From a virus: DNA of 21,330 nt. The stretch spans positions 1 through 21,330 of IMG/VR virus record IMGVR_UViG_3300037961_002872; one strand, given 5' to 3'. Position numbers and translations under genes: made by a program. Of the stretch, positions 8,661 to 21,330 are shown piece after piece. Positions within the stretch are counted from its first letter, which is position 1; every line of letters begins with the position of its first letter. The notes under the pieces were generated by a model. That model had not been told where the DNA came from. It saw nothing but the letters and a program-made list of their open reading frames with translations, and did not search any database.

Positions 8661-9253
8661 AATCCAGCCCAATTCTTACGAACCGCCTCCTTAAAAGCCG
8701 CATCCCAATTAACGTAGGTGTAGCCTTTCGCTACCGCTCGGTCTACAAAATGGTCTAGGTGCTGATTCAGAGAGCCATGCCCGTTCCGCAGCGCCCAATC
8801 CCTGACCTGATCTGAAATAGAAAAATCAGAAGGAATAGTGGTTTTCCTTTGTATCTTTCTCTTCTCTTCTTTTCTATTAGGAGGGATTTTCTCCTGATCT
8901 ACTCCAGAGTTTATCCTGACAACATTGTTCTGACGCATTAACTTCACGGTGTATTCATCTGATCTGCTGGACATTTTCAGGCACGTTATGCGCCCTTGTG
9001 CGTTCTCAAACAAACCCAATTCACACATAAATCGCATCATCTCTTCCACCCTGTCTCGATGGATGTTGATCTCTGCTGCGATAAGCTCTGCGTCCTCCTC
9101 CAACTCGAACGTCAAGTTATGAGGCTCAACGGTTCTGGCTACGCACTCTAGTAGATACCAATAAACCCCATAGCCCTCCATTCCATACTTCAGCCGTAGG
9201 CGCTTCAACTTTGCGTCCATGCTGGCGGTAGAGTCGTGCTTAAACCATTTCAT
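8657..9253 (-). CDS. Phage replication initiator/helicase-loader-like protein
   Basis: 198 residues, ATG at 9253 in an ATGA overlap. The N-terminal 90 residues begin MKWFKHDSTASMDAKLKRLR and GMEGYGVYWYLLE, which is the pattern of the Lin1244/Lin1753-type winged-helix domain found in phage replication proteins (DUF4373-like). A basic linker (about 120-140) follows. The C-terminal part, HLDHFVDRAVAKGYTYVNWD then AAFKEAVRKNW, resembles the DnaT/loader-type tail. Such two-part proteins bind origin DNA and recruit the helicase, whose gene follows directly. Confidence 0.75.
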   Translation of the reverse strand: MKWFKHDSTASMDAKLKRLRLKYGMEGYGVYWYLLECVARTVEPHNLTFELEEDAELIAAEINIHRDRVEEMMRFMCELGLFENAQGRITCLKMSSRSDEYTVKLMRQNNVVRINSGVDQEKIPPNRKEEKRKIQRKTTIPSDFSISDQVRDWALRNGHGSLNQHLDHFVDRAVAKGYTYVNWDAAFKEAVRKNWAGL

Positions 9254-9663
9254 TTAGACGCCTCCCGCTTGACCATTTTGGAAAAGCCAAACTCCTTGCC
9301 GCCCCGGAGGGCGGCGCGTTCAGCCTCAGCTAACTGACGGTCATTGAGAGGCTTGGAGTTATTGGCTAGGTCAACGATGTAATCGTCGTTTGTGCGCTCT
9401 TTGATGCCGTTACGCCGGGCTATACTGGCGTAATGCCGATCCTCCTCTGGATAAAGCTCCTCCCAAGAAACGCCGACAGCGCTTATGACATCCAGGTTAG
9501 AGCAACCGGCCCAGCAATGTAAAAGCAGACGCCCATCTTTCCCGACATCAATCGCCAGAGACGGGCTGGTGTCCGAATGAGCCGGACAACACGCGATCCA
9601 GCTTCCTTCCCCCTTCTTCTTCACCTTCTGAAGTCTGCTTAAAAAATTGCTGTAACTGCTCAT
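9250..9663 (-). CDS. CHC2-type zinc-finger primase fragment
   Basis: 137 residues, ATG at 9663. Residues 22-56 hold a primase zinc-binding motif: CCPAHSDTSPSLAI (25-38) then LLHCWAGCS (47-55), giving Cys26-x2-His29 and Cys50-x3-Cys54. The start is firm, because members of this family begin with a similar LxRLxKVKxxG block. Only the zinc domain is present; no TOPRIM polymerase part follows, so it may supply template recognition for another primase or a host enzyme. Its first 116 nt overlap the regulator gene upstream. Confidence 0.82.
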   Translation of the reverse strand: MSSYSNFLSRLQKVKKKGEGSWIACCPAHSDTSPSLAIDVGKDGRLLLHCWAGCSNLDVISAVGVSWEELYPEEDRHYASIARRNGIKERTNDDYIVDLANNSKPLNDRQLAEAERAALRGGKEFGFSKMVKREASK

Positions 9664-9904
9664 TTGGCGTTTGTCCCCCTTGCGCTTCGAATTGCGCCCT
9701 TTTGTTTGATTTAATAAGCATGGATGCTAATTCACTCTCATCTATGTCCAGAGCGTCACAGATTTTGAGCAGTGTTGTGACTCGCAAATCGCTTTGATTG
9801 CGCCAGCGGCTTAGTTGTTGCGGTGTAGTGTCAATACGCCTTGCTAATTCTGCCGCTGATACCTTCTTTCGAGCCTGCATTTCTTTTACCAAATCACCAA
9901 TCAT
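9548..9904 (-). CDS. XRE/Cro-type HTH regulator
   Basis: 118 residues from ATG 9904, 1 nt after the previous stop. Residues 1-62 form a lambda-repressor-like HTH: DLVKEMQARKKVSAAELARR is helices 1-2, DTTPQQLSRWRNQ is the turn and recognition helix, and VTTLLKICDALDIDESELA is the last helix pair. The remaining 55 residues are polar and end in a Gly/Glu/Arg-rich tail that runs 116 nt into the primase-fragment gene. There is no peptidase domain, so it is a Cro-like or small-repressor type rather than a self-cleaving repressor. It probably controls this operon or its divergent partner. Confidence 0.8.
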   Translation of the reverse strand: MIGDLVKEMQARKKVSAAELARRIDTTPQQLSRWRNQSDLRVTTLLKICDALDIDESELASMLIKSNKRAQFEAQGGQTPNEQLQQFFKQTSEGEEEGGRKLDRVLSGSFGHQPVSGD

Positions 9905-9905
9905 C

Positions 9906-10169
9906 TTAAAACCCCGGATCAGCTTTGACGGGAGCCTGCTCTTTCTGATTAGGCTCGTAAGTGTTTTCTTTCGCATAGGGCTTTCCGCCCTTAGAAATCA
10001 AAAACTCCATGTTCAACCATTCGGTGTCCGGGTTTAATTCCAGCCATGCCGTTATGAACTCTCGGAACTGCGGGATGTTGATGTTGCAATTCCCGATCTT
10101 CCAATCAGGCGCATTTGGATTGCGCTCCTTGGGGTAAACACCCCCGATTAACACACCATCATTGCTCAT
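9906..10169 (-). CDS. Hypothetical small phage protein
   Basis: 87 residues from ATG 10169, chosen over an in-frame upstream start (10247) that would lie inside the previous gene; AGGAG lies about 10 nt upstream. The sequence starts MSNDGVLIGGVYPKERN and contains NCNINIPQFREFITAWLELN; the C-terminus is Lys/Pro/Gln-rich. It may be a small OB-like or annealing-accessory protein, as its pattern 'GGVYPKE...NINI' resembles short phage DNA-metabolism proteins, but no family can be named. Stop and start overlap or abut both neighbours. Confidence 0.65.
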   Translation of the reverse strand: MSNDGVLIGGVYPKERNPNAPDWKIGNCNINIPQFREFITAWLELNPDTEWLNMEFLISKGGKPYAKENTYEPNQKEQAPVKADPGF

Positions 10170-10842
10170 CAGCGAAAATCTCCTTTCTTGCTGCGTTACT
10201 TTCATTTGTGCGGAAAAATGCCCGCTCCTCAGTGGTAAAAACCCCACCCTTTGATGGCGCTAAACCAAATAACGCCTCCAAATCATCATTGTCGATGTCA
10301 CAGTAATAGCGGTTAGCCTCTAAAACATCGCCCACTTTGACCAAATGCTTCATGTCTACCACATGATTCCAATGCTTCCGCACGGCGTTTAAGTGCTGCA
10401 ATAACTCCATGCCTCTGATGCGGCACGCCTCAAGATCAGCTTCTGCCTGCTTCACGTTACCCGCCTTTTCTTGAAAGTCATCGGCCTCCTCTTCGCTGTA
10501 GGCGTCACCATGCAAACCAACCAGCTTGAGTATCACGCGATCCTTGGCTCGCTTTTCTGCCATAGCGCAGTAGTATTTGTTGTGGCTGGTAGCGGCAGAT
10601 GCCTCACCCACCGACCACTCTGATTTACCCTCTAGCCTGCCTGTAACACAGATAGCCGCGAACTCTGGGCTAATGTTTAGTGGCTGCGGCGCGTCAAACT
10701 CAATCTTCAGGTGCATCGCCACCTTCTCTAATGCTTTGTGCTTCACGGCCCATGTCCCCGACCGCACTTCCCAGCAGGCGCTTTTGCCATCCTCTCCTAC
10801 GGCCTTCAGAAGCTCCTGTAAGCGCTTTGGTATTGAACTCAT
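10159..10842 (-). CDS. Phage DNA-metabolism protein, possible annealing protein
   Basis: 227 residues, ATG at 10842 behind AGGAGG and overlapping the upstream stop in ATGA. Residues 72-116 read EGKSEWSVGEAS, HNKYYCAMAEKRAKDRVILK and LVGLHGDAYSEEEADDF. The pattern of a WSxGEA turn followed by a basic AMAEKRAKDRxILKL helix recalls the ERF/Rad52-like single-strand annealing proteins, though I cannot confirm it. The C-terminal third holds a YYCDIDNDDLEALFGLAPSK segment. Next to recombination and replication genes, a strand-annealing role is plausible; uncharacterised conserved phage protein is the safe name. Confidence 0.6.
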   Translation of the reverse strand: MSSIPKRLQELLKAVGEDGKSACWEVRSGTWAVKHKALEKVAMHLKIEFDAPQPLNISPEFAAICVTGRLEGKSEWSVGEASAATSHNKYYCAMAEKRAKDRVILKLVGLHGDAYSEEEADDFQEKAGNVKQAEADLEACRIRGMELLQHLNAVRKHWNHVVDMKHLVKVGDVLEANRYYCDIDNDDLEALFGLAPSKGGVFTTEERAFFRTNESNAARKEIFADEQ

Positions 10843-11126
10843 ACATCCTCCTTTCTGGTTCCGTTATCTTCCATCTGAGCAAGCTCATAGCCCCTGCTGT
10901 AGCCATAGCGGTATGCCTCTGACTCAAAGGGGGTAATCCTGCTGTAATCGTGAACGTAGCCTGCCAAGAACCCGTCGAAAAATTCACTTCTTAGTTTAGG
11001 CAGGATGTCTGCAAACTGCTCCTCAAATATCCGCATAGTGTGCTGGATATCAACTATTTTGGCCTGACCGAAACACTCAGAATGCCTCATGCCGCGCTCA
11101 ATTAAATCGTTTTGATCAGGAATCAT
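10839..11126 (-). CDS. Hypothetical phage protein
   Basis: 95 codons from ATG 11126, chosen because it overlaps the upstream stop in ATGA with GAGGAG 9-14 nt before. The product looks helical and has the line EFFDGFLAGYVHDYSRIT, then YRYGYSRGYELAQMEDNG, which is rich in Tyr and Gly. A Gly-Tyr repeat of this kind (YRYGYSRGYE) is common in short phage proteins of replication operons. No motif gives a function. Confidence 0.65.
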   Translation of the reverse strand: MIPDQNDLIERGMRHSECFGQAKIVDIQHTMRIFEEQFADILPKLRSEFFDGFLAGYVHDYSRITPFESEAYRYGYSRGYELAQMEDNGTRKEDV

Positions 11127-11506
11127 TCGGTCCACTCCTCGTATCGCTCTACGCGCAGAAGTAACCATTGATGGATTTGCTCTTGCAGGTAGCCCCAGAT
11201 AGCCTTCGCAGTTTCGTAAGCAACTGGCGGCAGGCCGTCAATCTCAGCAGCGTCCATTGTCTGCATGACCCACTCCATCTGACTCCGCACGCAATATGGT
11301 GCAATCTCAGAGAGCCAATCGTCATAACCGTCTTTCAAAAACTCCAAAACCAGGTCAGCGCGTAATTGCGCTAGGTTGCCCGGCGCTGGACCCACCTCAC
11401 CCGCAGAGCTCAGCAATCGAGACGGATAATCACGCCAATCTGGGTCGTGCTTAACGACCTCCTCCACTAAATCAAGCCAATGCTGGCCCCTATCAAGTAC
11501 GCTCAT
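11123..11506 (-). CDS. First gene of the leftward replication operon, unknown
   Basis: 127 residues from ATG 11506, preceded by GGAGG spaced 6 nt; the longer start at 11533 has no ribosome site. Sequence is acidic and helical with Trp-rich segments (VLDRGQHWLDLVEEVVKHDP, QMEWVMQTMDAAE, AKAIWGYLQEQ). No family is recognised. A good candidate promoter lies upstream at 11565-11594. Being the first gene of a replication block, it may be an early regulatory or host-interaction protein. Confidence 0.7.
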   Translation of the reverse strand: MSVLDRGQHWLDLVEEVVKHDPDWRDYPSRLLSSAGEVGPAPGNLAQLRADLVLEFLKDGYDDWLSEIAPYCVRSQMEWVMQTMDAAEIDGLPPVAYETAKAIWGYLQEQIHQWLLLRVERYEEWTE

Positions 11507-11564
11507 ATTTCCTCCAATGCGGTAAATCCGCAAAACAAATAATAAGCCAGTTTGTTTAGGTTGT

Positions 11565-11594
11565 ACTATATTTTTTTGTTCTTAAACTAGGCAA
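11565..11594 (-). promoter_or_regulatory. Candidate sigma70-like promoter of the replication operon
   Basis: On the minus strand TTGCCT (11594-11589, 4/6 to TTGACA) is followed by an 18-nt spacer and TATAGT (11570-11565, 5/6 to TATAAT). Transcription would start near 11558, about 50 nt before the ATG at 11506. The region is AT-rich and shared with the divergent phosphatase gene at 11637. Confidence 0.55.
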
Positions 11595-11636
11595 CATACA
11601 AAACTAACCGATCTAAATCATTTCTGGGGGAATGTC

Positions 11637-12797
11637 ATGGATCATCCACTGCTCGAATTTTGCACGACAGATAAGCAAAGGCAGTGCGTCCGCCTCAATT
11701 GCATTGAAGGGTTGTCTCAGTATGAGATTGGCAGAAAGCTGGACATAACTCGTAGCGCCGTCCGAGACCACCTAAAAGTTGTAAAGGATAAGGCCGCAAG
11801 ACGCGGTTACAGCCCAGATCATGACTGGAAAAACCCCGTTCCTGACGGTCATAAAATTAAGGGTGTATCAACATTTTATGATGGGGAAGGCACTGCTATC
11901 CGGCAATGGGTGAAATCTCAGACAGATGAAGAGCGTCAGTTTGAAATTTTAGTTGAGCGAATAGAGGCAGCTAATGAGGGGCTTCCGAAATTTAAGCCCC
12001 TAGCAGCCCCGAAAACCGTAGATGGCGATTTACTGACCTTGCTCACCATAACCGATTTCCACTTGGGTATGTATGCCTATGAAGCTGAAACCGGGGATGA
12101 TTGGGATGTCACCATAGCGCGAGACGTTTTCCTCAATTCAGTACACGACATGATCAAGGCATCACCGAAGTCTGGCACCGGGATTCTTTGTCAGCTAGGA
12201 GACTTCTTGCACTGGGACGGAATACTTAGTGTCACGCCGCAGTCAGGTCACATTTTGGATGCCGACACCCGCTACGGCAAGCTGGTTGAATTGTCCATGT
12301 CTGTCATGACCGAAGCCGTCAAGATGATGCTTAAACATTTTGCCAAAGTTGTTGTCATTTCAGCGGAGGGAAATCACGACATTTCGGGAAGCATTTGGCT
12401 ACGGAAGCATCTTAAACACCTTTTCGCTAAAGAGCCTCGACTTGAGGTTATTGACAATGACTTTCCTTATTACGCTTACCTACACGGTCAAACCATGTTG
12501 GGCTTCCATCACGGTCATAAAGTAAAGCTGGCGCAGCTGCACAAACTATTCGCTAGTGAGCCTCGCTTCCGAGAGATGTGGGGGGCGTCCACTAGCGCGT
12601 ATTTGCATACTGGGCATCTGCATCACGAGAGAGTAATTGAAGACGGCGGGGCAATCGCTGAGATGCACCCGACCCTAAGCGGCAGGGATGCGTATGCAGC
12701 TCGAGGGGGTTGGGTATCAAGACGCGGGGCAAAGGTTATCACTTACCACAAAACAGATGGTGAAGTTGGCAGGATTACAGTGAGGCCAAGAAGATGA
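11637..12797 (+). CDS. HTH-domain fused to a calcineurin-like metallophosphatase
   Basis: 386 residues, ATG at 11637 with GGGGGA upstream. N-terminal residues 11-50 form a sigma-region-4/LuxR-like HTH: KQRQCVRLNCIEGLSQYEIG then RKLDITRSAVRDHLKVVKDK. After a linker (about 60-130) comes a two-metal phosphoesterase: DFH (140-142), GD (188-189), GNHD (245-248), HHGH (291-294) and GHLHH (326-330), which are the five metal-binding blocks in family order. The resemblance is to SbcD-like DNA-active members, so the protein may bind a DNA site and cut or dephosphorylate nucleic acid. It is divergent from the replication operon and coupled by ATGA to the next gene. Confidence 0.83.
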   Translation: MDHPLLEFCTTDKQRQCVRLNCIEGLSQYEIGRKLDITRSAVRDHLKVVKDKAARRGYSPDHDWKNPVPDGHKIKGVSTFYDGEGTAIRQWVKSQTDEERQFEILVERIEAANEGLPKFKPLAAPKTVDGDLLTLLTITDFHLGMYAYEAETGDDWDVTIARDVFLNSVHDMIKASPKSGTGILCQLGDFLHWDGILSVTPQSGHILDADTRYGKLVELSMSVMTEAVKMMLKHFAKVVVISAEGNHDISGSIWLRKHLKHLFAKEPRLEVIDNDFPYYAYLHGQTMLGFHHGHKVKLAQLHKLFASEPRFREMWGASTSAYLHTGHLHHERVIEDGGAIAEMHPTLSGRDAYAARGGWVSRRGAKVITYHKTDGEVGRITVRPRR

Positions 12798-13051
12798 TAC
12801 CTATATTTAAAGTCCCAATGGGTAAGGGTCAGATTGCTTTACTAACAGAGACAATTGGCGGGGCCATGTCTAACAGCACCAGCCCAGAGCTAACAGACGT
12901 TTACACCGACACCTTCCCAGATGGCGTAACAGTAGACATCACAATAAATGATTTTGTTAAGATTTGGTTGACTTGCTATTGTTGCGAGCTAGAAGAGCTC
13001 GAGGGCGAAATTGAGTTTTTAGTTTCAGACCAATCCGACAAGGTTCATTAG
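12794..13051 (+). CDS. Hypothetical partner of the phosphatase gene
   Basis: 85 residues, ATG in an ATGA overlap with the phosphatase gene. It starts with MIPIFKVPMGKGQIALLTET, has a Thr/Asp/Val-rich middle and an acidic LTCYCCELEELEGEIEFLV stretch with a CYCC group. An internal ATG at 12866 could be an alternative start. The stop converges on the endolysin stop, sharing 4 nt. Coupling suggests work with the phosphatase, but function is unknown. Confidence 0.65.
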   Translation: MIPIFKVPMGKGQIALLTETIGGAMSNSTSPELTDVYTDTFPDGVTVDITINDFVKIWLTCYCCELEELEGEIEFLVSDQSDKVH

Positions 13052-13419
13052 TACGACCACACCGTAGGACCGGGCCTGTCATCGCACCAATCTAAATGAA
13101 TAAACCGCAAAGTCCCGCGCTGATTGACGCCTACTCGCGGAACATTATGAGCAAATGCCACTTTCAGCAAGGCATGAGCTTTGTCCAATTCAACAGCCAA
13201 GTCAACAGCCTTGCCTGTAGTGTGAGCCCCAGGCGGTCTACCATTCGCTATTTTGTCAGCCTCAATTGAGTGTTTTGGGCATCTGTAGCCTGAAGATACA
13301 GGTAATGGGAAGCCTACTTCTTCACGAATATCGTTTAGCCGAGCAAGAGCTTGCTCATCAAACCGATACGTCCCGCAGCCGCACTTGCAGCGCAGCTCAT
13401 CTTCACTGAAATAACTCAC
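13048..13419 (-). CDS. M15-family peptidase endolysin
   Basis: 123 residues, ATG at 13419 overlapping the holin-like stop in ATGA. It cuts peptide stems of the host cell wall from the inside. The fold is that of M15/Hedgehog-like D-Ala-D-Ala or L-Ala-D-Glu peptidases: SSGYRCPKHS (42-51), zinc ligands His66 and Asp73 in GAHTTGKAVD (64-73), and His108 in RFIHLDW (105-111). The N-terminus has a Cys-rich CKCGCG (11-16), common in this subfamily. No signal peptide or anchor is present, so it needs a holin, and several membrane proteins precede it. Length is typical of the family. Confidence 0.9.
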   Translation of the reverse strand: MSYFSEDELRCKCGCGTYRFDEQALARLNDIREEVGFPLPVSSGYRCPKHSIEADKIANGRPPGAHTTGKAVDLAVELDKAHALLKVAFAHNVPRVGVNQRGTLRFIHLDWCDDRPGPTVWSY

Positions 13420-13610
13420 TCTTTCTTGCCTAGAAATAAACCAAATGCCCCGGTTAGCGCGCCCGTCATAACTGACACGAGAGCGGCTTGCTCTGGGTTG
13501 GGGTCAGGGAGAGACATAAACCACTCAACGGTGCGATATGTCATTGCAATCATGGCAAACATCAGCAATCTGGGGATGATGCGCCATGCGTTAAGTTGCT
13601 CTGGGGTCAT
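13416..13610 (-). CDS. Small two-helix membrane protein, holin candidate
   Basis: 64 residues, with two hydrophobic helices: IIPRLLMFAMIAMTYRTVEW (11-30) and AALVSVMTGALTGAFGLFLG (42-61), a PDPNPEQ turn between, and a basic end GKKE. This resembles short two-helix phage membrane proteins (class II holin topology). It directly precedes the endolysin and overlaps its start by 4 nt, the normal place for a holin. An alternative is an accessory lysis protein. Confidence 0.7.
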   Translation of the reverse strand: MTPEQLNAWRIIPRLLMFAMIAMTYRTVEWFMSLPDPNPEQAALVSVMTGALTGAFGLFLGKKE

Positions 13611-13981
13611 GACTTTTTGAGCTTCATCAGCTTGTCAGCGCCCTTAATCCCGAAGGAGGCGCTCACAGCCAGAAAAAGTAAGTATTGATACCAAGACGGT
13701 AAAGTATCAAGTGCATCAAAGCTATCGCGAACGCGACCAACAATAGTGGGATCATCCATGACAACAGAGTATGCCAAACAAAATAAAGGCGCTGCCAAAC
13801 AAATAGTCCAAAATTCGTCTTTCCAGCTCGACGCAGAAGCCGCCGCCATCTTAGCTTCCCAATCCGCATCATTTTGGATAACTTGGAGCTTGGCTTGGTG
13901 CTTGGCTTGCGCTTGCTCATGCTTGTTGGTGAGATAACCAGATGCAAGATTAGCTATCGGCCCTATCAATGCCTGTAGCAT
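13607..13981 (-). CDS. Phage membrane protein, possible holin or lysis accessory
   Basis: 124 residues from ATG 13981, which overlaps the previous stop in TGATG. An N-terminal Ala-rich half is helical and amphipathic (KHEQAQAKHQAKLQVIQ). Two hydrophobic spans follow, FWTICLAAPLFCLAYSVV (about 57-74) and YQYLLFLAVSASFGIKG (about 97-113), separated by an acidic stretch. The pattern of a charged helix and SSWKDE before the first span is shared, from memory, with unassigned phage membrane proteins next to lysins. Probably a lysis protein; not proven. Confidence 0.6.
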   Translation of the reverse strand: MLQALIGPIANLASGYLTNKHEQAQAKHQAKLQVIQNDADWEAKMAAASASSWKDEFWTICLAAPLFCLAYSVVMDDPTIVGRVRDSFDALDTLPSWYQYLLFLAVSASFGIKGADKLMKLKKS

Positions 13982-14163
13982 CAACGGAAACGCCTATTAA
14001 AGCGGCGATATACGTCTCGCGCTGTATCAGTCTCCCATATCCGAATTGCAGTCCAAATAATCGTTAAAACGGCGGCAATCGCTGGGAGTAAACCAGCAAG
14101 AGCGCCAACGCCTGTCGCTACCGAAACAGTATCCACTACTTGCTTTAACCCCTCATCACTCAC
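13981..14163 (-). CDS. Small single-span membrane protein
   Basis: 60 residues, GTG start at 14163 with AGAGGAT 6 nt upstream. One long hydrophobic segment, GVGALAGLLPAIAAVLTIIW, with a following AIRIWETD, spans about residues 18-44. The tail is Arg-rich (YRRFNRRFR) and would stay in the cytoplasm. Similar small Trp-Arg-ended membrane proteins accompany phage lysins. It overlaps the next gene by 1 nt and is probably coexpressed with it. Confidence 0.65.
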   Translation of the reverse strand: MSDEGLKQVVDTVSVATGVGALAGLLPAIAAVLTIIWTAIRIWETDTARDVYRRFNRRFR

Positions 14164-14178
14164 CGTTTTATCCTCTAC

Positions 14179-14661
14179 TTACTGCAACGGGTTGCTTACC
14201 GCATCCATTGCATTCCACAAGTCATCTATTTCGCGTCTAAGGCTTTGCATTCTATCATCATATTTACTGACTATATCAGCTTGACTTTCGACCGTGATAG
14301 CACTTTCTCCGGCCTGCCGCTCCGCTGTCTCTACTCGATCACGCAAATCTAGTAGCTCTCTCTGGCGCTCCATAATCTGCTCCAGATTAGCCCCTAGCTC
14401 TGCCAGCTTGCCCTGTAGCCCAGCGATGTTTTGGTCAACAAGGCGCTGCTCTACAAGACCAACGCGGTCTGTGATATCTGTAAGGTCAGGGACTTGAATA
14501 GCATTAAGGCGCTCCTCAATGCCGTCAATCCGAGCGAAAAACTGAGAAGCAGCCCATATGCCGCCGCCAATGCTAGTAGCCATAGACAGAACAATAGCGA
14601 TCCAAACACCTTTGAAGCTAGTGCCATTAACATTTAGCTCAACCCCATCTAAACCTGACAT
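14179..14661 (-). CDS. Membrane-anchored coiled-coil protein, spanin-like candidate
   Basis: 160 residues. One N-terminal membrane segment, GVWIAIVLSMATSIGGGIW (18-36), is followed by about 110 residues of Glu/Leu/Arg-rich coiled coil (VEQRLVDQ, GKLAELGANLEQIMERQREL, RVETAERQ, DDRMQSLRREIDDLWNAM). A short cytoplasmic start and a long outside coiled coil are typical of an inner-membrane spanin, and it lies among lysis genes. No lipoprotein partner is directly adjacent; the nearest lipoprotein is two genes upstream. Other phage coiled-coil membrane proteins exist, so spanin is a hypothesis. Confidence 0.6.
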   Translation of the reverse strand: MSGLDGVELNVNGTSFKGVWIAIVLSMATSIGGGIWAASQFFARIDGIEERLNAIQVPDLTDITDRVGLVEQRLVDQNIAGLQGKLAELGANLEQIMERQRELLDLRDRVETAERQAGESAITVESQADIVSKYDDRMQSLRREIDDLWNAMDAVSNPLQ

Positions 14662-14662
14662 C

Positions 14663-15514
14663 TCAACCGCCCTGACAGCTATCGACTATTGAAGGATCTT
14701 GGAAGAACGCGCATGGGTTATAAGTAGGCCCAGTCTGGTAGAACCCGCTAGTCTCACCCTCTGTCAGTATTTCTGCCGTTGTCTTAAAGTAATCGCCAAC
14801 CGATACCGCAACCGTTGCAACCACCTCGTTAAACTTCACCGTCACATCGCCTGTAGCCGCATCAAAGAACGACTCAGTAGCATCGGCATACGTTGTATCT
14901 AGCTGTGCCGCCTGCTCGTTTGCGCTGTCAATGAGCTCCGGGCTAGACGCTACCGCCATAAATGCAGCAGCAGTCTGGGTCGTTTCTTCTACGTTTGTTA
15001 GCGCATCGTTGTAAATATCTACCTCTGCGTCCTGCAGCGTAACGTCATTTGTGTTGAGGTATTCTTGCACTGCCGCAGCCTTTTCGTTGTCCCCAGCTGC
15101 TTGGGCGTCAGTGGCAATCTCATTTACCCGGACAACCTCAATCACCGCCTGCGCCGCATCTACATAAGCGTCAACCGCTACGGCAACCTGGTTCATAGCT
15201 TGATCTGACGCCTCATTGAAATATTCTTGAGCGCCAACATCTATGGGATACGTTGCTGCCTGTACTGCAGCCACCGCAGCGTTATAAGCATCTGCCTGAC
15301 CATAGCTAATCAAGCCATCAGTTACTGTGCCTACCGGAGCAATGCCGCCCGTTTGAGCGTAGGCAGCCATTCCGCCGACCGCCCTTATCCCGTAATCAAA
15401 CGTAGACCGGATTGACGCACTTGTGCTTACAAGATCATCAATCCCCGCCGCTGTTAGTGCTGGTGCGGAAACGCTCGCTAATACTAGCCCCGCTATCGAC
15501 TTCTTCAATTTCAT
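14663..15514 (-). CDS. Exported Ala/Val/Thr/Asp-rich protein of the late operon
   Basis: 283 residues from ATG 15514, with AGGTGA 6-11 nt upstream; a GTG 9 nt earlier also fits. The N-terminus, MKLKKSIAGLVLASVSAPAL, is a classical signal peptide, with cleavage expected near ALTAAG. The mature protein is Ala/Val/Thr/Asp-rich and acidic, with long low-complexity helices (ASDQAMNQVAVAVDAYVDAA). Two Cys lie near the C-terminus (NPCAFF and DSCQGG), possibly a disulfide. It overlaps the previous gene by 77 nt. Function unknown; a host-surface or virion-related exported protein is possible. Confidence 0.65.
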   Translation of the reverse strand: MKLKKSIAGLVLASVSAPALTAAGIDDLVSTSASIRSTFDYGIRAVGGMAAYAQTGGIAPVGTVTDGLISYGQADAYNAAVAAVQAATYPIDVGAQEYFNEASDQAMNQVAVAVDAYVDAAQAVIEVVRVNEIATDAQAAGDNEKAAAVQEYLNTNDVTLQDAEVDIYNDALTNVEETTQTAAAFMAVASSPELIDSANEQAAQLDTTYADATESFFDAATGDVTVKFNEVVATVAVSVGDYFKTTAEILTEGETSGFYQTGPTYNPCAFFQDPSIVDSCQGG

Positions 15515-16064
15515 CTGTTTCACCTATGTTCAACATGGCATCGTAGTAGGGCTTTCTTTTCACATAGTCCGGTATGAATACCGTGGGCAACTGGCGCATC
15601 GCCATCATTGCCGCTCGACCTACCACTAGCTTGCCATTTACCAATATTGGGCAAGGCGTCCCAGACGTAAACATCGCTGTCCAGATTTCTTTCTCTTGGC
15701 ACATGAGGCTTACTGCCGCAATGCTCATGCCCAATTCCTTGAGAGTCTTAGCGTCTTTGCGCCGATTGCATTTTTCGTCTTGCATATATTGCCCAGCGGA
15801 GATGCCAATCATCACAAACTGAGCGCCGCCTGATTTTGATTTTAGGCAAGTGTCGTTGCCGCTACTCATCAGGCTAGGAGAAATGGCGCTGTACACCGGC
15901 ATCTGACTGCTAGACCCAGCACCATTAAACGTCTTTGAATTGTTTGTTGTACTGTTGTTGGAATTAACAGTACTGTCTTGCGTGTTAGTGTTGAGGTCGC
16001 CCTGCTGATCGTTTTGCGCGTTTGCACTTACAGCCAGAAAAACAAACAGCAGGAACCACCTCAT
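15438..16064 (-). CDS. Exported four-cysteine protein of the late operon
   Basis: 208 residues, ATG at 16064, no clear ribosome site, so coupling from the preceding lipoprotein (4 nt upstream) is likely. MRWFLLFVFLAVSANAQ is a signal peptide. Then a Ser/Asn/Thr/Gln-rich low-complexity stretch (about 18-50) precedes a folded part with MPVYSAISPSLMSSGNDTC and KSGGAQFVMIGISAGQYMQD. Cys73, Cys99, Cys122 and Cys138 are the only cysteines and may form two disulfides. I recall similar secreted phage proteins with the YSAISPSL block, without assigned function. Its tail overlaps the next gene by 77 nt. Confidence 0.68.
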   Translation of the reverse strand: MRWFLLFVFLAVSANAQNDQQGDLNTNTQDSTVNSNNSTTNNSKTFNGAGSSSQMPVYSAISPSLMSSGNDTCLKSKSGGAQFVMIGISAGQYMQDEKCNRRKDAKTLKELGMSIAAVSLMCQEKEIWTAMFTSGTPCPILVNGKLVVGRAAMMAMRQLPTVFIPDYVKRKPYYDAMLNIGETDEIEEVDSGASISERFRTSTNSGGD

Positions 16065-16068
16065 AGCA

Positions 16069-16860
16069 TTAGTTGCAAGTCACTACGACTTTGCCATCAT
16101 CATCCGTTGTAATCACACAGCCCTTATTGGTCGCAGTAGCGTACTCTAGCCAATCTTGGTTGGTCGTCCAGATGCCTTCCATCCCGATTTTTCCGAGGCT
16201 GTGCAGATTCGTTAGGGCATTAGTGCCAAGCGTCACAAGGTTGGTCATGCCAGCAGTACCCATGTTGTAGGTTGCGTTTAGGCCGTCTTCAGCAGTAGCG
16301 CCAATTTGGGTAAAGCCAGCTACGGCGATCTCAGCGTTAGTATCAAATCCTTCTGTACCTAGAGTGACTGCGCCATCAATACCAGCAGTACCTAGCGTTA
16401 CCATGCCGTCAATCCACGGCGTGAAGTCTACGTTTGATGCCGCCTCACCCATGCTGACAAATGAACCGTAGAGCGCCTGCTGCGTAGTTGCATCAGCACT
16501 GATACGAGCAAGATCAACCTCTGCCGAGTACCGAGCCATTGTCTTGGTTGAGTCTGCCTGCATCCACATCATGCCCAAATTACTGATCGGGGCAGCTAGT
16601 ATGCTTGCCCATTGGATTGCCTGAGACTGCTGGGGAATAGGCTGTACAACAGGTGTCTGTGTCATGGCTAGAGCCATAACCGCAGCACTAGCCGCTTGTC
16701 CATCGCCTGCCGCCGCAATAGCCGACAACGCATCGAATTTTGCCTGCGCTGCTCTGGCGTTAGCTTCAGCACTTTTTTGTACCGCTTCGTAGTATTGAGT
16801 AGTAGTTGACGCACACCCAACCAAGCCCAATAACGCTACCGCACAAATCAAATTTTTCAT
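16069..16860 (-). CDS. Lipoprotein with an 11-residue repeat
   Basis: 263 residues, ATG at 16860 with GGAAGGA 8 nt upstream. MKNLICAVALLGLVGC is a lipoprotein signal with lipobox LVGC and acylated Cys16; Ala17-Ser18 next to it suggests transport on to the outer membrane. An Ala-rich helical region (about 20-65) and a Pro/Gln link (68-80) follow. Residues 151-238 consist of eight tandem 11-residue units such as DGMVTLGTAGI, DGAVTLGTEGF and TNLVTLGTNAL. The C-terminus has Cys248 and Cys262. Possible roles are outer-membrane spanin partner or virion/host-surface protein; length is much greater than typical spanin lipoproteins. Confidence 0.72.
   Translation of the reverse strand: MKNLICAVALLGLVGCASTTTQYYEAVQKSAEANARAAQAKFDALSAIAAAGDGQAASAAVMALAMTQTPVVQPIPQQSQAIQWASILAAPISNLGMMWMQADSTKTMARYSAEVDLARISADATTQQALYGSFVSMGEAASNVDFTPWIDGMVTLGTAGIDGAVTLGTEGFDTNAEIAVAGFTQIGATAEDGLNATYNMGTAGMTNLVTLGTNALTNLHSLGKIGMEGIWTTNQDWLEYATATNKGCVITTDDDGKVVVTCN
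16147..16410 (-). repeat. Eight tandem 33-nt units encoding 11-residue repeats
   Basis: Lipoprotein residues 151-238 fall into eight 11-residue units in strict register: DGMVTLGTAGI, DGAVTLGTEGF, DTNAEIAVAGF, TQIGATAEDGL, NATYNMGTAGM, TNLVTLGTNAL, TNLHSLGKIGM, EGIWTTNQDWL. Most have a TLGT or related core and seven of eight end in Gly or Ala plus a hydrophobic residue. The unit just before (140-150) may be a degenerate ninth. Confidence 0.7.
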
Positions 16861-16861
16861 G

Positions 16862-17230
16862 TCAAATGTCCTTCCCTAAACTAAAGGTGAAAGGCTTATA
16901 ACCTTTCTTGTCCAGCACCCGTTGCCAGCCTTTACGGCCCGCAACACTCATCCCAGTACAGCCGCTTAACTTTGCATAGTGTACCGCCGATTCATCCATA
17001 TCAACAATAGTGTCCATATTTCCGCCCGCTAGGAAGATATGTAACACTTTTTTGCGCGGGTAACATATGATCTCAGTTACAGCGCAGGCATCGTCAGCAG
17101 GCCAAAACTGCATTAAGCCTTTTTTTACGCCATCTACGATGTCTTCAAATATGTGGGTGTTGCCCCCTCTGTCTAATGCCGCCTCAATCCACGGTTTACA
17201 GCGGTCTAGCTCTTTATCTAAATCCTCCAT
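16862..17230 (-). CDS. Conserved phage protein, GNAT-fold-like
   Basis: 122 residues, ATG at 17230 behind AAGGAG. Pattern: RCKPWIEAALDRGGNTHIFE, MQFWPADDACAVTEIICYPR, KVLHIFLAGGNMDTIVDMDE, GCTGMSVAGRKGWQRVLDKK, GYKPFTFSLGK. I associate this layout with a roughly 120-residue protein found next to tail genes in many podovirus-like phages. The strand-turn around VLHIFLAGG and the closing GRKGWQRVLDKKGYKPF recall the core and end of GNAT acetyltransferases, but catalytic residues are not evident and the substrate is unknown. It could have become a structural or chaperone-like protein. Confidence 0.65.
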   Translation of the reverse strand: MEDLDKELDRCKPWIEAALDRGGNTHIFEDIVDGVKKGLMQFWPADDACAVTEIICYPRKKVLHIFLAGGNMDTIVDMDESAVHYAKLSGCTGMSVAGRKGWQRVLDKKGYKPFTFSLGKDI

Positions 17231-17241
17231 TTACGCACTCC

Positions 17242-17535
17242 TTACGGTTGAACTTTAACAAAACCGTTTGAATCAACGTAAAGCGCCCCCGATACAGATG
17301 TGCTGCTCGGCAAGCTGTTACCTTTAGACATTAAAACTTGCACAAATTCGTTACCAACGGAAACAACCAGATAGCCATTGCTTGCGTCATACAGCAAAAT
17401 GCCGTTTTCAGTTGCCACATCGGACGTTTGCTTTTGCGATATCAGCGCCCTGACCCGGGTTAGGTAATCGTTTAGATCCTCCGCCCATAAATGCGGTGTC
17501 TCTCTGGAGTACGGTGGTGGTAACTCTCTGCTCAC
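17242..17535 (-). CDS. Hypothetical small tail-region protein
   Basis: 97 residues, GTG start at 17535 in a GTGA overlap with the nozzle gene's stop. Residues 1-40 (SRELPPPYSRETPHLWAEDL, NDYLTRVRALISQK) look like a tail-attachment peptide, followed by a compact beta domain (NGILLYDASNGYLVVSVGNE, SGALYVDSNGFVKVQP). I recall short phage proteins with the same PPPYSRETPHLWAEDLxxYL start downstream of nozzle genes. It may attach a fibre or cap; function not established. Confidence 0.6.
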   Translation of the reverse strand: MSRELPPPYSRETPHLWAEDLNDYLTRVRALISQKQTSDVATENGILLYDASNGYLVVSVGNEFVQVLMSKGNSLPSSTSVSGALYVDSNGFVKVQP

Positions 17536-19436
17536 CGCCTTCCTCCGCCGCTGATACGCAACCGGACATCACCTACACGCCAGTTAGCCTCTGCATCGCC
17601 GTCAATCCGAACCCTAACTTGCCTGCCCGTCATCCTAACGCTTGTCGGGTTTGTTGGGTCAAACGGGCCATGCTCAGTCTCGCTCCCGTTAGGGTAGAAA
17701 CGAGTTTTAAATTTAACGCTGACCTCGCCCTGCGTATCCTCTTCTGGGATCATCTCCGTAATACGCATAACCGTGTCACCGTCAGCAATGTTTACGGGGC
17801 CACTTTCAACAAATACCGCGCTACCCTCATGACCATATCCTGACTCATGGCGATATACCGCGCCATCTGTACCAATCCACATCGGGTCCAAGAACACACC
17901 AGAATCTACGCCAGTGCAGCGCCCAAGATCGCCCACAAGCCAATGGTTTTCGTTGTAGTCGTAAGCAACGTACCGGGTGTTTTCGCTTTGGCCTTCGCCA
18001 GGGTAAAACCACCAAACCTCGTTAAATTTCTGATTAGCAACACAGAATCCGTGGCTAATTCGGTCTCGGTTCATCTCGGTAAATACCTTGTCATGCACCT
18101 CGCATGGAAGAACTCGAGCCGTTGAACCGTCATATACAAAGAAGTTGCGTTCACCCATCCAGAAGGCTGTCGGGCCTACAGAAGCCAGCATATTGCGACC
18201 AACTAAGCCGCACGAGTTGCCGATTTTCTGAAACCCAAACACCGTAGGTGGCCCCTGATACGTTGCGACCCACGCATCTATATCTGTACAGATCAGGGTT
18301 CTACCTCGCACCCTTGCCCCTGCAACAATCTCGCCTGATGTCTGTAGCTCAAGGTCGCCAGCCTCGTTAGTAACCGCTGGCTGCCACTCGTACAGGTTTT
18401 CACGGTCACACCACTGCACCTTCCGAGTGTTGCCGCCTGCGCCAAGGCAGAATACAAATCTTTCAGCGGTAACAACTATCGCTTTGTTTGATGTTGGCAC
18501 TTCGCTAGAAACGGACACTGATGAGTTAGCAGAAACAAGTGTTGCAACCGTTGTCGTAGGACTTGCCGCAAATGCCGACACATCCAACTCATACAAGTTG
18601 CCGTCTGCATCAGACAGCGCAACCAAGTCTTCACCCCAGTTGTCTAGCGTCCAATTAGTAGCCGCTGCGACCGTGTAGTTTCTTTCTCTGGGTACGCCAT
18701 AAGCGCCAGAGCCATAGTTTTTACCACCGTAACCAAGGTTTTCAGTCGCTTGTGCAATGCCCGCACTGAACCCTGCCGGGGTGATGTCGTAGACAACATC
18801 GTTGCCGTCTATCATCGCTAAACGGTTGTATGACCCAGCAGCAAGGTATGGCGATCCATTATTTGACGCCCATGCGTGTGAGCCTCTGGACTGCCTGTTG
18901 GCTTGGCGTACCGTTATCTCAGTGAGCGTAATCGTGTCTGTCTCTCCGCCCGTAGCAGAGTCAAGCGTAATAACTAGATTGGTGTTTGAAAGCGATCCGC
19001 CAGTGGTGATCGAAAACGAACTACGGCCTGTTGTCGTAATGTTTGTGCTGGATGCCACCCCGCCAAGGGTGATCGTTGCTGACGCCCCTGTAGACACCGC
19101 TGTTACGTTTACATCTACGACATAGCTGGTTGAGACCGCCAGCACACTCGACAAGCTCTGCGTGATGCTCGCCGCTGTGCCTGCCGTATTGCTCAACTGC
19201 AGCGTGTCAATATCTGCATTGTAGTTGGTGTTAGATAGCGTCCACTTTGACGAATCTTCTAGGTGCGGGTCATTGCTAATCGTTTCAATGTTTGCCGACT
19301 GCACCCAGCCGCCTACTGGCTGCGGAGCGTTGTTAGTCCAGCGCACAAGGCTAGAGTCAAGCCAGCGCCCCTTAGAGTCTAAGTCTACGCCGTGACTATA
19401 AACGCCTGCGGGAATGTCCAGCTTGAATAGGGGCAT
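17532..19436 (-). CDS. Tail nozzle/stabilisation-like protein with an inserted domain
   Basis: 634 residues, ATG at 19436 overlapping the previous stop by 1 nt. Residues 1-48 (LDIPAGVYSHGVDLDSKGRW, LDSSLVRWTNNAPQPVGGW) and 184-634 carry the beta-propeller-like pattern of podovirus tail-nozzle and head-completion proteins: repeats such as GSPYLAAGSYNRLAMI, GVPRERNYTVAAATNWTLDN, GEDLVALSDADGNLYELD, RTLICTDIDAWVATYQGP and MGERNFFVYDGST. Residues about 55-180 form a separate Thr/Ser-rich beta-sandwich-like domain (SKWTLSNTNYNADIDTLQLS to TDTITLTEITV). It would sit at the tail tip or below the portal. The C-terminal segment ends in an Arg/Gly-rich GDVRLRISGGGRR. Confidence 0.75.
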   Translation of the reverse strand: MPLFKLDIPAGVYSHGVDLDSKGRWLDSSLVRWTNNAPQPVGGWVQSANIETISNDPHLEDSSKWTLSNTNYNADIDTLQLSNTAGTAASITQSLSSVLAVSTSYVVDVNVTAVSTGASATITLGGVASSTNITTTGRSSFSITTGGSLSNTNLVITLDSATGGETDTITLTEITVRQANRQSRGSHAWASNNGSPYLAAGSYNRLAMIDGNDVVYDITPAGFSAGIAQATENLGYGGKNYGSGAYGVPRERNYTVAAATNWTLDNWGEDLVALSDADGNLYELDVSAFAASPTTTVATLVSANSSVSVSSEVPTSNKAIVVTAERFVFCLGAGGNTRKVQWCDRENLYEWQPAVTNEAGDLELQTSGEIVAGARVRGRTLICTDIDAWVATYQGPPTVFGFQKIGNSCGLVGRNMLASVGPTAFWMGERNFFVYDGSTARVLPCEVHDKVFTEMNRDRISHGFCVANQKFNEVWWFYPGEGQSENTRYVAYDYNENHWLVGDLGRCTGVDSGVFLDPMWIGTDGAVYRHESGYGHEGSAVFVESGPVNIADGDTVMRITEMIPEEDTQGEVSVKFKTRFYPNGSETEHGPFDPTNPTSVRMTGRQVRVRIDGDAEANWRVGDVRLRISGGGRR

Positions 19437-19942
19437 TAAGATGTATACCCAATAAATGAACCGTAAAGAGTGCCGCCCACATTCCAGATTTGAATCCAGT
19501 TTGTAGCACCCACCTCAAGCTCTGGGGCAGACCCAAACAGCCACTCCATAGTGGGCCATGTGATGTCGTCAGTAGAGCCAACAGAGGTAAAACGCAGGGT
19601 TACGAACTCGCCAGATGCAAGGCTTGAGGTGATAGTTACGTCACCCGCCATCGCGCACGTTTGGACCGTCCCGTTAGCTGGGTCAACATTCTGAGTGCCT
19701 GATGTGCCTAACGCATGGACTTGCTCAGTAATCTTGCCATCTACGTCAAGCGCGGCGACCTGATTTAGCGTCATGCCTGATGTGGTATAGCTGTTGAGGT
19801 TTAGTACAGTCCCACCGCCGCCACCCCCAGCATTCAGCAGAGTGTCCAAAGATGTCCAGTTATTGTTGAGTTTTGTACCCCACGCATCGGAGTCGCCACC
19901 GATTGCGGGAAGGTTAAAACTGAAATTTGTAGTAGTAGTCAT
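19436..19942 (-). CDS. Small phage tail-fibre protein
   Basis: 168 residues, ATG at 19942. The N-terminus NFSFNLPAIGGDSDAWGTKL then NNNWTSLDTLL is a common attachment segment of short phage tail fibres. A hexaglycine (GGGGGG, residues 40-45) links it to a beta-rich body containing LNQVAALDVDGKITEQVHAL, LASGEFVTLRFTSVGS and IQIWNVGGTLYGSFIG. It lies between the glycine-rich adhesin and the nozzle gene in the late operon, so it probably forms part of the receptor-binding tail apparatus. Confidence 0.75.
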   Translation of the reverse strand: MTTTTNFSFNLPAIGGDSDAWGTKLNNNWTSLDTLLNAGGGGGGTVLNLNSYTTSGMTLNQVAALDVDGKITEQVHALGTSGTQNVDPANGTVQTCAMAGDVTITSSLASGEFVTLRFTSVGSTDDITWPTMEWLFGSAPELEVGATNWIQIWNVGGTLYGSFIGYTS

Positions 19943-19987
19943 AGCTGCTCTCGCTCTTAATCCCTATATTTTACTACGGCTAATAAA

Positions 19988-20899
19988 TTATTTTGCCACT
20001 TTCGTTGACGGGTAACGCCTTGATCTTCCGGGCCACACAATCCTTACCGCGCCTTCTTTGCCAGAATATCCGTAAAATCCGGCACCAATCGAATTAGCCC
20101 CTGCTGGGGTTGGACCGCCGCCGCCATATTCCTGATCATCTTGTCCTGAGTCTGTGCCTTGGTCATGCGACCCTGGGCTGCCATCGTTCTCTCGGATCGT
20201 ATTTTCTGACGTATTTGCAGTGTCATAAATACCACCAGCGCCGGAAGTACCCTGACCATATAGACTCACACCGCCGCCATAGCCCCCTTGTCTTCTAAAA
20301 GGGCTGAAGCTGCCACTAAGCCATTTTCCACCAGCGCCGCCACCGCCACCACCGCCTGACCCAGCGGAGCCGTTCCCTGTTGCGCCGTTACCGCCATTTC
20401 CAGCATAGCCAGCAGCACCGCCACCACCGGGGCCAGCAGAGCTAAATCTGCCATTGGCCCCAGAAGCGCCGCTTCCGCCTGCATATGATCCCTTTCTGGA
20501 AACTTCCGCCGCCAAAATGGTAGTGTCGCTGTTTGTGTTGTCGCCGCCTGCACCGCCTTTTGCTTGTATTAAAGTCGTGCCGCTGCGGGATATTGATGAC
20601 GCGCCGCCGTTACCCCCTGCGTCGTTAACCCCGCCAAAGTTGTATGCCCCGGCTGACCCACCATCACCAACGACTACGGTAAGCTGCTGTCCCGGGCTAA
20701 CTTTTATCGTCCCGTAGGCTAACGAGCCTCCGTCTCCAGCTTCACAGAGATAGTTGCTAGAGCCGCCGCCACCGCCGCCAATACAAACACACGCTATATA
20801 CTCAACATTATCTGGAACAGTAAACGTGTGGGTTCCCGGGCTGAATATCTGCTCCCCTTTTGCGGGCAGACCCTTGGCTTTCACCATTGCTCTAAACAT
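19988..20899 (-). CDS. Glycine-rich adhesin-like tail protein
   Basis: 303 residues, ATG at 20899 in a TAATG overlap. Residues 17-45 (EQIFSPGTHTFTVPDNVEYI, ACVCIGGGGGG) form the usual start of glycine-rich phage domains. From about 40 to 275 there are many Gly runs (GGGGAAGYAGNGGNGATGNG, GSGGGGGGGAGG, YGGGGPTP) with short variable inserts, as in gp38-type adhesins where polyglycine helices display receptor-contact loops. The end, YSGKEGAVRIVWPG, is the typical closing motif. A role in host recognition is inferred. The variable inserts (about residues 120-145 and 235-260) would be the contact loops. Confidence 0.82.
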   Translation of the reverse strand: MFRAMVKAKGLPAKGEQIFSPGTHTFTVPDNVEYIACVCIGGGGGGSSNYLCEAGDGGSLAYGTIKVSPGQQLTVVVGDGGSAGAYNFGGVNDAGGNGGASSISRSGTTLIQAKGGAGGDNTNSDTTILAAEVSRKGSYAGGSGASGANGRFSSAGPGGGGAAGYAGNGGNGATGNGSAGSGGGGGGGAGGKWLSGSFSPFRRQGGYGGGVSLYGQGTSGAGGIYDTANTSENTIRENDGSPGSHDQGTDSGQDDQEYGGGGPTPAGANSIGAGFYGYSGKEGAVRIVWPGRSRRYPSTKVAK

Positions 20900-21330
20900 T
20901 ACACATTACTCCAAGTGTCGCCAGGTTCTGGCCTGTCTGCCCAGATCGCGGATGGCTCCACCCTGTCTGTCCATGTGTCGCCGGGTTCCGGCTCTGATTC
21001 CCACTTCAAGCGTCCTGATATCGCCATGACCCCAGTAGCGGCAGATTTTGCGCCTGATTTAGTAATGATCCTAACTGTTGATGCTAGTAAATTACCTTCT
21101 GCTGCTATCAGGGCCGCGCCAGCATGATTCATCCCGGCACCAGCGTTGGTGACGCTAACTGCAGCCGCTTGTATTCCGGCCTGCTGTACTCGATACGGCG
21201 AAAGCGTAGTGCTAGAGGCTGCCGCAGAAGCGAGTGCCGCCGGGAGTACAAGCCCCGCGCCAGCGTTAGTGGCAGATGCTACATCAGAAGATGCAGCGGC
21301 ATTAAGATAATCGCCTTCTGCGTATCCCTT
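20899..21330 (-). CDS. Phage tail protein, N-terminus outside the window
   Basis: The frame is open from the right edge to TAA at 20901-20899, giving 143 residues of a C-terminal part. An internal ATG at 21132 exists, but the open frame upstream reads as protein, so the gene probably starts beyond the window. The sequence is Ala/Ser-rich and includes repeated ATNAGAG and VTNAGAG blocks, a beta-like AEGNLLASTVRIITKSGAKS, then two Trp-containing repeats (EPEPGDTWTD, RPEPGDTWSN). Repeats of this kind are common at the end of phage tail or fibre proteins. It overlaps the adhesin start by 1 nt. Confidence 0.68.
   Translation of the reverse strand, partial: KGYAEGDYLNAAASSDVASATNAGAGLVLPAALASAAASSTTLSPYRVQQAGIQAAAVSVTNAGAGMNHAGAALIAAEGNLLASTVRIITKSGAKSAATGVMAISGRLKWESEPEPGDTWTDRVEPSAIWADRPEPGDTWSNV

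Follow-up and report, generated by a model that had tools for sequence, protein, structure and literature searches.

Several described proteins resemble, in part, the phage lipoprotein analysed here. Hendecad helices occur in DNA-delivery tubes such as phiX174 H, tetrabrachion is a hendecad coiled coil, T5 Llp and Cor are phage outer-membrane lipoproteins with an exclusion role, and the Braun lipoprotein Lpp is linked to peptidoglycan through its C-terminal Lys. Lpp is also reported to contribute to the spatial constraints of the envelope (PMC8824477). The 11-residue repeats of perilipin 4 (Plin4) form a 3-11 helix with few bulky residues, a preference for Asp over Glu, and 5 Gly and 3 positive charges per 33 aa (PMC8064757, PMC5889406). 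Spanin pairs, for which a survey reports extreme diversity and a combined periplasmic length of 62–300 residues, include the separated T4 pair PseT.2/PseT.3, in which the two o-spanin cysteines are needed for lysis (PMC6139136).

The window analysed here, a 21,330-nucleotide stretch of an IMG/VR virus record (IMGVR_UViG_3300037961_002872), encodes on its minus strand a 263-residue lipoprotein (16069–16860), termed LIPO, which has at least 78 distinct complete relatives in uncultured phages and lies between a tail-hub-like gene (17532–19436, phrog_3287) and an M15 peptidase endolysin gene (13048–13419). The sequence-only reading had taken it for a lipid-anchored protein of the late operon, and both points are borne out: its signal peptide carries the lipobox LVG-C16 with Ala at +2 (16813–16860, minus strand), and genes for holin-like proteins and the M15 endolysin belong to the same minus-strand operon. 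The mature protein, which we infer to reside in the outer membrane, has 248 aa. Residues 17–135 (16456–16812, minus strand) form a conserved N-terminal region with almost no indels and the bulk of the family's invariant residues in an alignment of 57 sequences. The spacing from the lipid Cys to a YY(E/A) motif is 7 in all 76 relatives in which both motifs were located, and that from YYE to LGMMW is 72 residues, again in 76 of 76. Lipobox variants in the relatives are chiefly ITGC, LVGC, LSGC, VTGC and LTGC; the lipid Cys was taken as the first Cys after residue 8, a rule under which at least eight rows (ALLC, SILC, VLLC) represent a Cys within the signal peptide and no true lipobox. Two cysteines lie close to the C-terminus in nearly all of the 78 relatives, 16 and 2 residues before the end in 51 of them, and hydropathy analysis of 16 LIPO proteins found no C-terminal hydrophobic segment, and hence no C-terminal transmembrane segment of the u-spanin kind.

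Between the conserved region and the C-terminus lies an array that had been read from the sequence as eight consecutive units of strictly 11 residues. On the minus strand, 16147–16410 is exactly 88 codons (LIPO residues 151–238), and the eight units it encodes are contiguous with zero indels (in order, DGMVTLGTAGI, DGAVTLGTEGF, DTNAEIAVAGF, TQIGATAEDGL, NATYNMGTAGM, TNLVTLGTNAL, TNLHSLGKIGM and EGIWTTNQDWL). Identity at lag 11 is 21/77, the top rate among lags 3–30, and was equalled by none of 20,000 shuffles at lag 11, nor was that rate reached at any lag from 3 to 30 in 5,000 shuffles. The gap-free 11-residue period stands, although the sequences of the units are degenerate. Units 1–7 match the family consensus at 8–11 of 11 positions, with Ala replacing the near-invariant Gly at position 10 of unit 6; because unit 8 fits the consensus poorly (7 of 11 positions) and belongs to the conserved tail, seven canonical units plus one degenerate cap unit is the fairer count. 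An origin of the repeat as a DNA or assembly artefact was considered and ruled out, since Tandem Repeats Finder reported no DNA-level tandem repeat at 16147–16410 and the protein periodicity persists; the period is therefore maintained in the protein despite divergence of the DNA.

To describe the register, 466 units from 71 proteins were compiled. Gly fills position 10 in 96% of units and position 7 in 79%, the latter position being otherwise nearly always Ala or Ser; position 6 is Leu in 65%, position 11 is Met, Ile, Phe or Leu in 92%, position 1 is Asp, Asn or Thr in 92%, and position 8 is Thr in 64%. The arrays are rich in Gly (20%) and Thr (16%), and have a D:E ratio of 7.1:1.2; Lys and Arg are absent from 62 of the 71 and appear only once in each of the other 9. 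Projection on an 11/3 helix puts positions 8, 1 and 5 on a narrow polar face and positions 6, 10, 3, 7, 11 and 4 on a broad apolar one lined with Gly. The strict small residues at positions 10 and 7 suggest close helix–helix packing over simple adsorption to lipid. Hydrophobic-moment analysis gave 98 degrees as the best harmonic for 59 of 71 arrays on the Eisenberg scale, 25 of 71 on Kyte–Doolittle and 2 of 71 on Fauchere–Pliska, an answer on helix versus strand that varies with the scale and on which no main argument is built.

Relatives were collected from IMG/VR, where scans with the window protein and with the 57-sequence alignment found 130 and 211 encoding stretches, respectively, of which at most 80 per scan were kept; pooling four scans gave 91 distinct frames, of which 13 incomplete ones were dropped and 78 complete ones retained. 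Array length was measured from an array-start motif to a conserved Trp in the tail, both anchors being present in 72 of the 78 (of the remainder, five are missing the tail motif and one the array-start motif). These distances range from 50 to 152 residues, and modulo 11 they equal 6 in 38 relatives, 9 in 33 and 2 in one (L075), so that array length is constant modulo 11 inside each of two tail types in 71 of 72 proteins. The class-6 proteins listed have a common 'NNxL...W..Y' tail, the window protein is of class 9, and L075 combines the class-6 tail with a distance 7 residues above a class value (79 vs 72). The spacer before the array takes only four lengths, 16 (5 proteins), 20 (55), 27 (14) and 31 (1), in steps of 4, 7 and 4 residues. 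Nearly all measured length changes are of 4, 7 or 11 residues, steps that hold a helix in phase. At the nucleotide level, a single 33-nt gap is the sole difference within four of the 26 close pairs listed (L066/L060, L052/L231, L032/L039 and L032/L071), and 15 of the 26 include a gap that is 33 or 66 nt long; in many of the remaining pairs the alignment is broken by numerous small gaps and is uninformative. Protein length is 263 residues in the window and reaches 343 in relatives. The comparison of unit number proposed by the sequence-only reading thus found the periodicity retained, with length shifting by whole hendecads.

Monomer models from AlphaFold2 agree with a helical array. For the window protein (57-sequence alignment), a continuous helix of 97 residues is predicted at 147–243, with block pLDDT of 69–85 over residues 151–240, followed by a beta hairpin at residues 248–262 (16075–16119, minus strand) with Cys248 and Cys262 at its edges; the N-terminal half has pLDDT below 60, and pTM is 0.24. 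For the longer relative L066 (302 residues, 33 sequences), the predicted helix covers 134 residues (147–280) with block pLDDT up to 95, the two models together spanning pTM 0.24–0.29. A longer array thus gives a longer predicted helix, 134 vs 97 residues at anchor-to-Trp distances of 116 and 86, which at 1.5 angstrom per residue corresponds to roughly 200 and 145 angstrom. The suggestions that the array might be helical in hendecad fashion and form an elongated element, and that an unstructured loop would speak against this, fare well here: each model predicts one long helix and no such loop, and the length steps are 4, 7 and 11. The 11-residue period, phase-preserving indels and predicted helix that characterise hendecad coiled coils are all present in LIPO, and a helical rod expandable by whole units is well supported by alignments and models. 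The hydrophobic pattern of LIPO is compatible with hendecad a/d/e/h if position 11 is taken as a, a likeness to hendecad (undecad) coiled coils such as NadA3 (PMC6191539); it differs from these in that Gly occupies its h and k positions. A sequence search of the PDB gave no match. A Foldseek search of the L066 model against the PDB gave no match at E <= 0.001 (best 2.7), a single long helix being an uninformative query.

The late operon of the window runs from the tail-hub-like gene through a small protein, a phrog_22172 protein, LIPO, two exported proteins and an N-anchored coiled-coil protein to holin-like genes and the M15 endolysin. The first exported protein (15438–16064, minus strand) belongs to phrog_20531 and has relatives near a lysozyme gene in two roseophages, and the second (14663–15523, minus strand) is mostly helical. 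The coiled-coil protein (14179–14661, minus strand) has an N-terminal transmembrane segment, a predicted coiled coil and no Cys, gives only generic coiled-coil profile matches, and is a candidate i-spanin-like partner. Beyond it lie a holin-like gene (13607–13984, minus strand; phrog_2524, with a weak GTA_holin_3TM match), a conserved 64-residue membrane protein that adjoins the endolysin (13416–13610, minus strand; matched in 12 of 80 loci), and the endolysin itself on the same strand (PF08291, E 1.7e-11; phrog_894, E 1.7e-22).

This linkage to lysis genes, which the sequence-only reading does not mention, recurs across the family. Within 2 kb of LIPO in 61 representative loci, an M15 gene is found in 31 and a gene for DUF5675, which carries a Pfam label of unknown function and which we take to act as an endolysin, in 10, never together (41 of 61 in total), and GTA-type holins lie near LIPO in several. 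Of the 43 loci that extend 1.5 kb or more to either side of LIPO, 30 carry a gene of endolysin type or a holin-like one no further than 2 kb away and 13 carry neither; one of these 13 is L001, a near-copy of the window whose endolysin is about 2.55 kb away. Eight contigs of 30–49 kb, drawn from twelve (G003, G004, G009 and G012 left out), each carry one M15 or DUF5675 gene, at most 2554 nt from LIPO in all eight and less than 1 kb away in seven. A six-frame lipobox scan of the same eight found LIPO as the sole match in five and two extra short lipobox ORFs (45–120 codons) in each of the other three, which are taken to be chance matches; in the window, the only other match is a 62-codon ORF that starts with TTG and lies on the opposite strand. 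LIPO is essentially the only lipoprotein encoded in these contigs. By simple hydropathy, an N-anchored membrane protein is present in 15 of the 61 loci, and a Cys-free one lies 15–1408 nt from LIPO in 5 of the 8 contigs. The gene immediately downstream of LIPO encodes the terminase large subunit in 18 of 61 loci, and a capsid-like gene, named by eye, lies near LIPO in 8 of 61.

Searches of LIPO against Pfam, PHROGs, NCBIfam, PADLOC and PDB sequences returned nothing convincing and only sub-threshold matches. Those to the PHROG annotations 'Rz-like spanin' and 'lipoprotein' were discounted because, in the ten members inspected individually, they fall on residues 1–50, the lipoprotein signal region. 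Beyond that region, LIPO has no sequence similarity to any spanin. No match was obtained among INPHARED cultured phages by tblastn with three family queries, a search that possibly left records very near the window outside its reach; 175 pattern matches in GTDB genomes included zero LIPO relatives, and no description of the family was found in open-licence PMC literature. The family is nevertheless not wholly unseen before, since the UniProt viral entry A0A516LWI0 (269 residues, in BFVD) is a member, 66% identical to L066 over 302 columns (Foldseek E 1.8e-24). That identity was found although tblastn with L066 detected nothing in INPHARED.

With two C-terminal cysteines in LIPO and a Cys-free N-anchored protein nearby, an o-spanin-like role is the leading hypothesis. 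LIPO would be a periplasmic lipoprotein anchored in the outer membrane and made late, alongside holin and endolysin. Its C-terminal half would be one long helix of tandem 11-residue units, each making three helical turns, capped at its end by the hairpin with two Cys at its edges; gain or loss of whole units (33 nt) would keep the phase and make the rod longer or shorter by some 16 angstrom for each unit. Rods may pack via their Gly/hydrophobic face and, once peptidoglycan is cut, would extend toward the inner membrane; after contact there with a short N-anchored partner they would help to clear the outer-membrane barrier, in the manner of an o-spanin. Taken whole, this reading of LIPO, as a periplasmic helical rod of variable length that is seated on the outer membrane and acts in lysis like an o-spanin, is a tentative one, to which we give a little less than an even chance.

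The comparison with T4-type o-spanins (PseT.2/PseT.3) shows where likeness ends. LIPO shares with them (PMC6139136) the lipobox, the endolysin and holin linkage, the two C-terminal Cys and, in 5 of 8 contigs, a nearby Cys-free N-anchored protein that is a candidate inner-membrane partner; two Cys in the lipoprotein and none in its neighbour is also the commonest pattern of two-component spanins. A spanin pair is expected to have one or more periplasmic Cys close to its C-terminal interaction site, as the LIPO cysteines would provide. LIPO differs, however, in its size, with 263 residues in the window and as many as 343 in relatives, and in a combined periplasmic length that in the window sums to about 370 residues (248 plus about 122 for 14179–14661), above the maximum of 300 in that survey, and also in its hendecad rod on the outer-membrane side, its conserved N-terminal region and a partner that often goes unrecognised. 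Because the partner is seen in few loci (15 of 61) and the length lies beyond the survey range, LIPO probably works like an o-spanin, which is not to say that it is one. Against this reading stand the strongly conserved N-terminal region, where spanins are reported as extremely diverse, the terminase large subunit gene directly downstream in 18 of 61 loci and the 13 of 43 loci with no endolysin-type or holin-like gene within 2 kb. A more elaborate version, which we consider rather unlikely, holds that hendecad helices anchored in the outer membrane oligomerise into a tube or rod of tunable length, with unit number matching the width of the host envelope, so as to act as a molecular ruler; the usual layout of long i-spanin and short o-spanin would then give way to one in which the outer component is long and the inner one short, an inverted spanin architecture. 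The LIPO family could represent an unrecognised solution in uncultured phages, and the whole-hendecad changes between near-identical phages would offer a natural series relating periplasm-spanning length to outer-membrane breakage.

Other readings of the same features were weighed against this one. The 11-residue period and V/T/A/G bias, similar to Plin4, together with the Gly and Thr content and the excess of Asp over Glu, are what an amphipathic 3-11 helix would show if the array coated the inner face of the outer membrane and loosened it, in the manner of a disruptin; indeed LIPO and the perilipin 4/alpha-synuclein 11-mers are alike in being Gly-rich helices, predicted in LIPO, that lengthen by repeat number. 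Compared with Plin4 (PMC8064757, PMC5889406), however, LIPO has almost no Lys or Arg where Plin4 has 3 positive charges per 33 aa, a near-invariant Gly at position 10 that suggests helix packing, common bulky L/M/I/F at positions 6 and 11, a lipid anchor and a bacterial periplasmic setting, and we regard a membrane coat as unlikely. The strongly conserved N-terminal region could instead bind a conserved host protein, as would suit a late outer-membrane lipoprotein that acts at the periplasmic face against later phages, stopping either their adsorption or the entry of their DNA (receptor masking or superinfection exclusion). T5 Llp and Cor provide precedents, and 5 of 57 members weakly match the Cor profile phrog_1119 (best E 0.023). 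The sub-threshold PHROG matches of ten members nevertheless fall mostly at residues 1–50, in the lipoprotein signal region, LIPO is without a PADLOC match, and the constant proximity of endolysin and holin would be unexpected, so that exclusion seems rather unlikely.

Two further readings turn on the rod itself. LIPO resembles Lpp, with its reported contribution to envelope spacing, in being a lipoprotein with a helical rod, predicted in LIPO and changing in length by whole units, and it might act as a tether that sets the envelope width of the infected cell or protects the envelope until lysis. It differs from Lpp in being phage-encoded, variable in length and built of hendecads instead of heptads. 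It ends, however, in a predicted Cys hairpin with no Lys-type peptidoglycan anchor, and near-identical phages differ in array length; we regard a structural spacer as quite improbable. The neighbouring terminase (directly downstream in 18 loci) and capsid-like genes (near in 8), with the precedent of hendecad helices in the phiX174 H tube, would fit a protein of the virion or of entry, which would keep its signal-like start uncleaved and form part of the tail or a helical tube that is ejected. The lipobox is canonical, however, and at fixed spacing to the next motif, an endolysin-type gene lies nearby in 8 of 8 contigs, and to our knowledge tailed virions are not expected to contain lipoproteins; we hold this reading to be very unlikely.

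Several observations on neighbouring genes accompany these results. The contig G001 matches window positions 8293–21330 at about 99.93% identity, but its version of the candidate partner at 14179–14661 (L001:7200–7595) has a coiled coil shorter by 87 nt, or 29 codons and about 8 helical turns, a second helix-phase-preserving length change. Just 3′ of LIPO, three loci (L067:5777–6004, L045:1141–1356 and L029:4978–5196) encode a Cys-free protein of 71–75 residues in which a membrane segment at the N-terminus is followed by a charged tail; its L029 copy has no match in Pfam or PHROG. A small 'GDATSQLIN...NESxSGRAYR' protein (phrog_3342, unknown function) is encoded near LIPO in 23 of 61 loci, for example at L265:2350–2757 and L006:4741–5004. 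Phages of Pelagibacter and Roseobacter encode relatives of phrog_20531, which in CRP-207, CRP-810 and HTVC023P lie close to a lysozyme or M15 gene, and in the roseophages CRP-207 and CRP-810 the phrog_20531 gene is followed by one whose protein resembles, by eye, that of 14663–15523; the pair 15438–16064 and 14663–15523 is possibly a widespread envelope or lysis module of marine phages. Judging from sequence likeness, the tail genes of the window phage are akin to those of Octadecabacter Antarctic DB virus 2, whose gp13 is matched by 17532–19436 at 47.9% identity over 79% and whose gp17 is resembled, by eye, by the MGGGKGGG protein at 561–1112.
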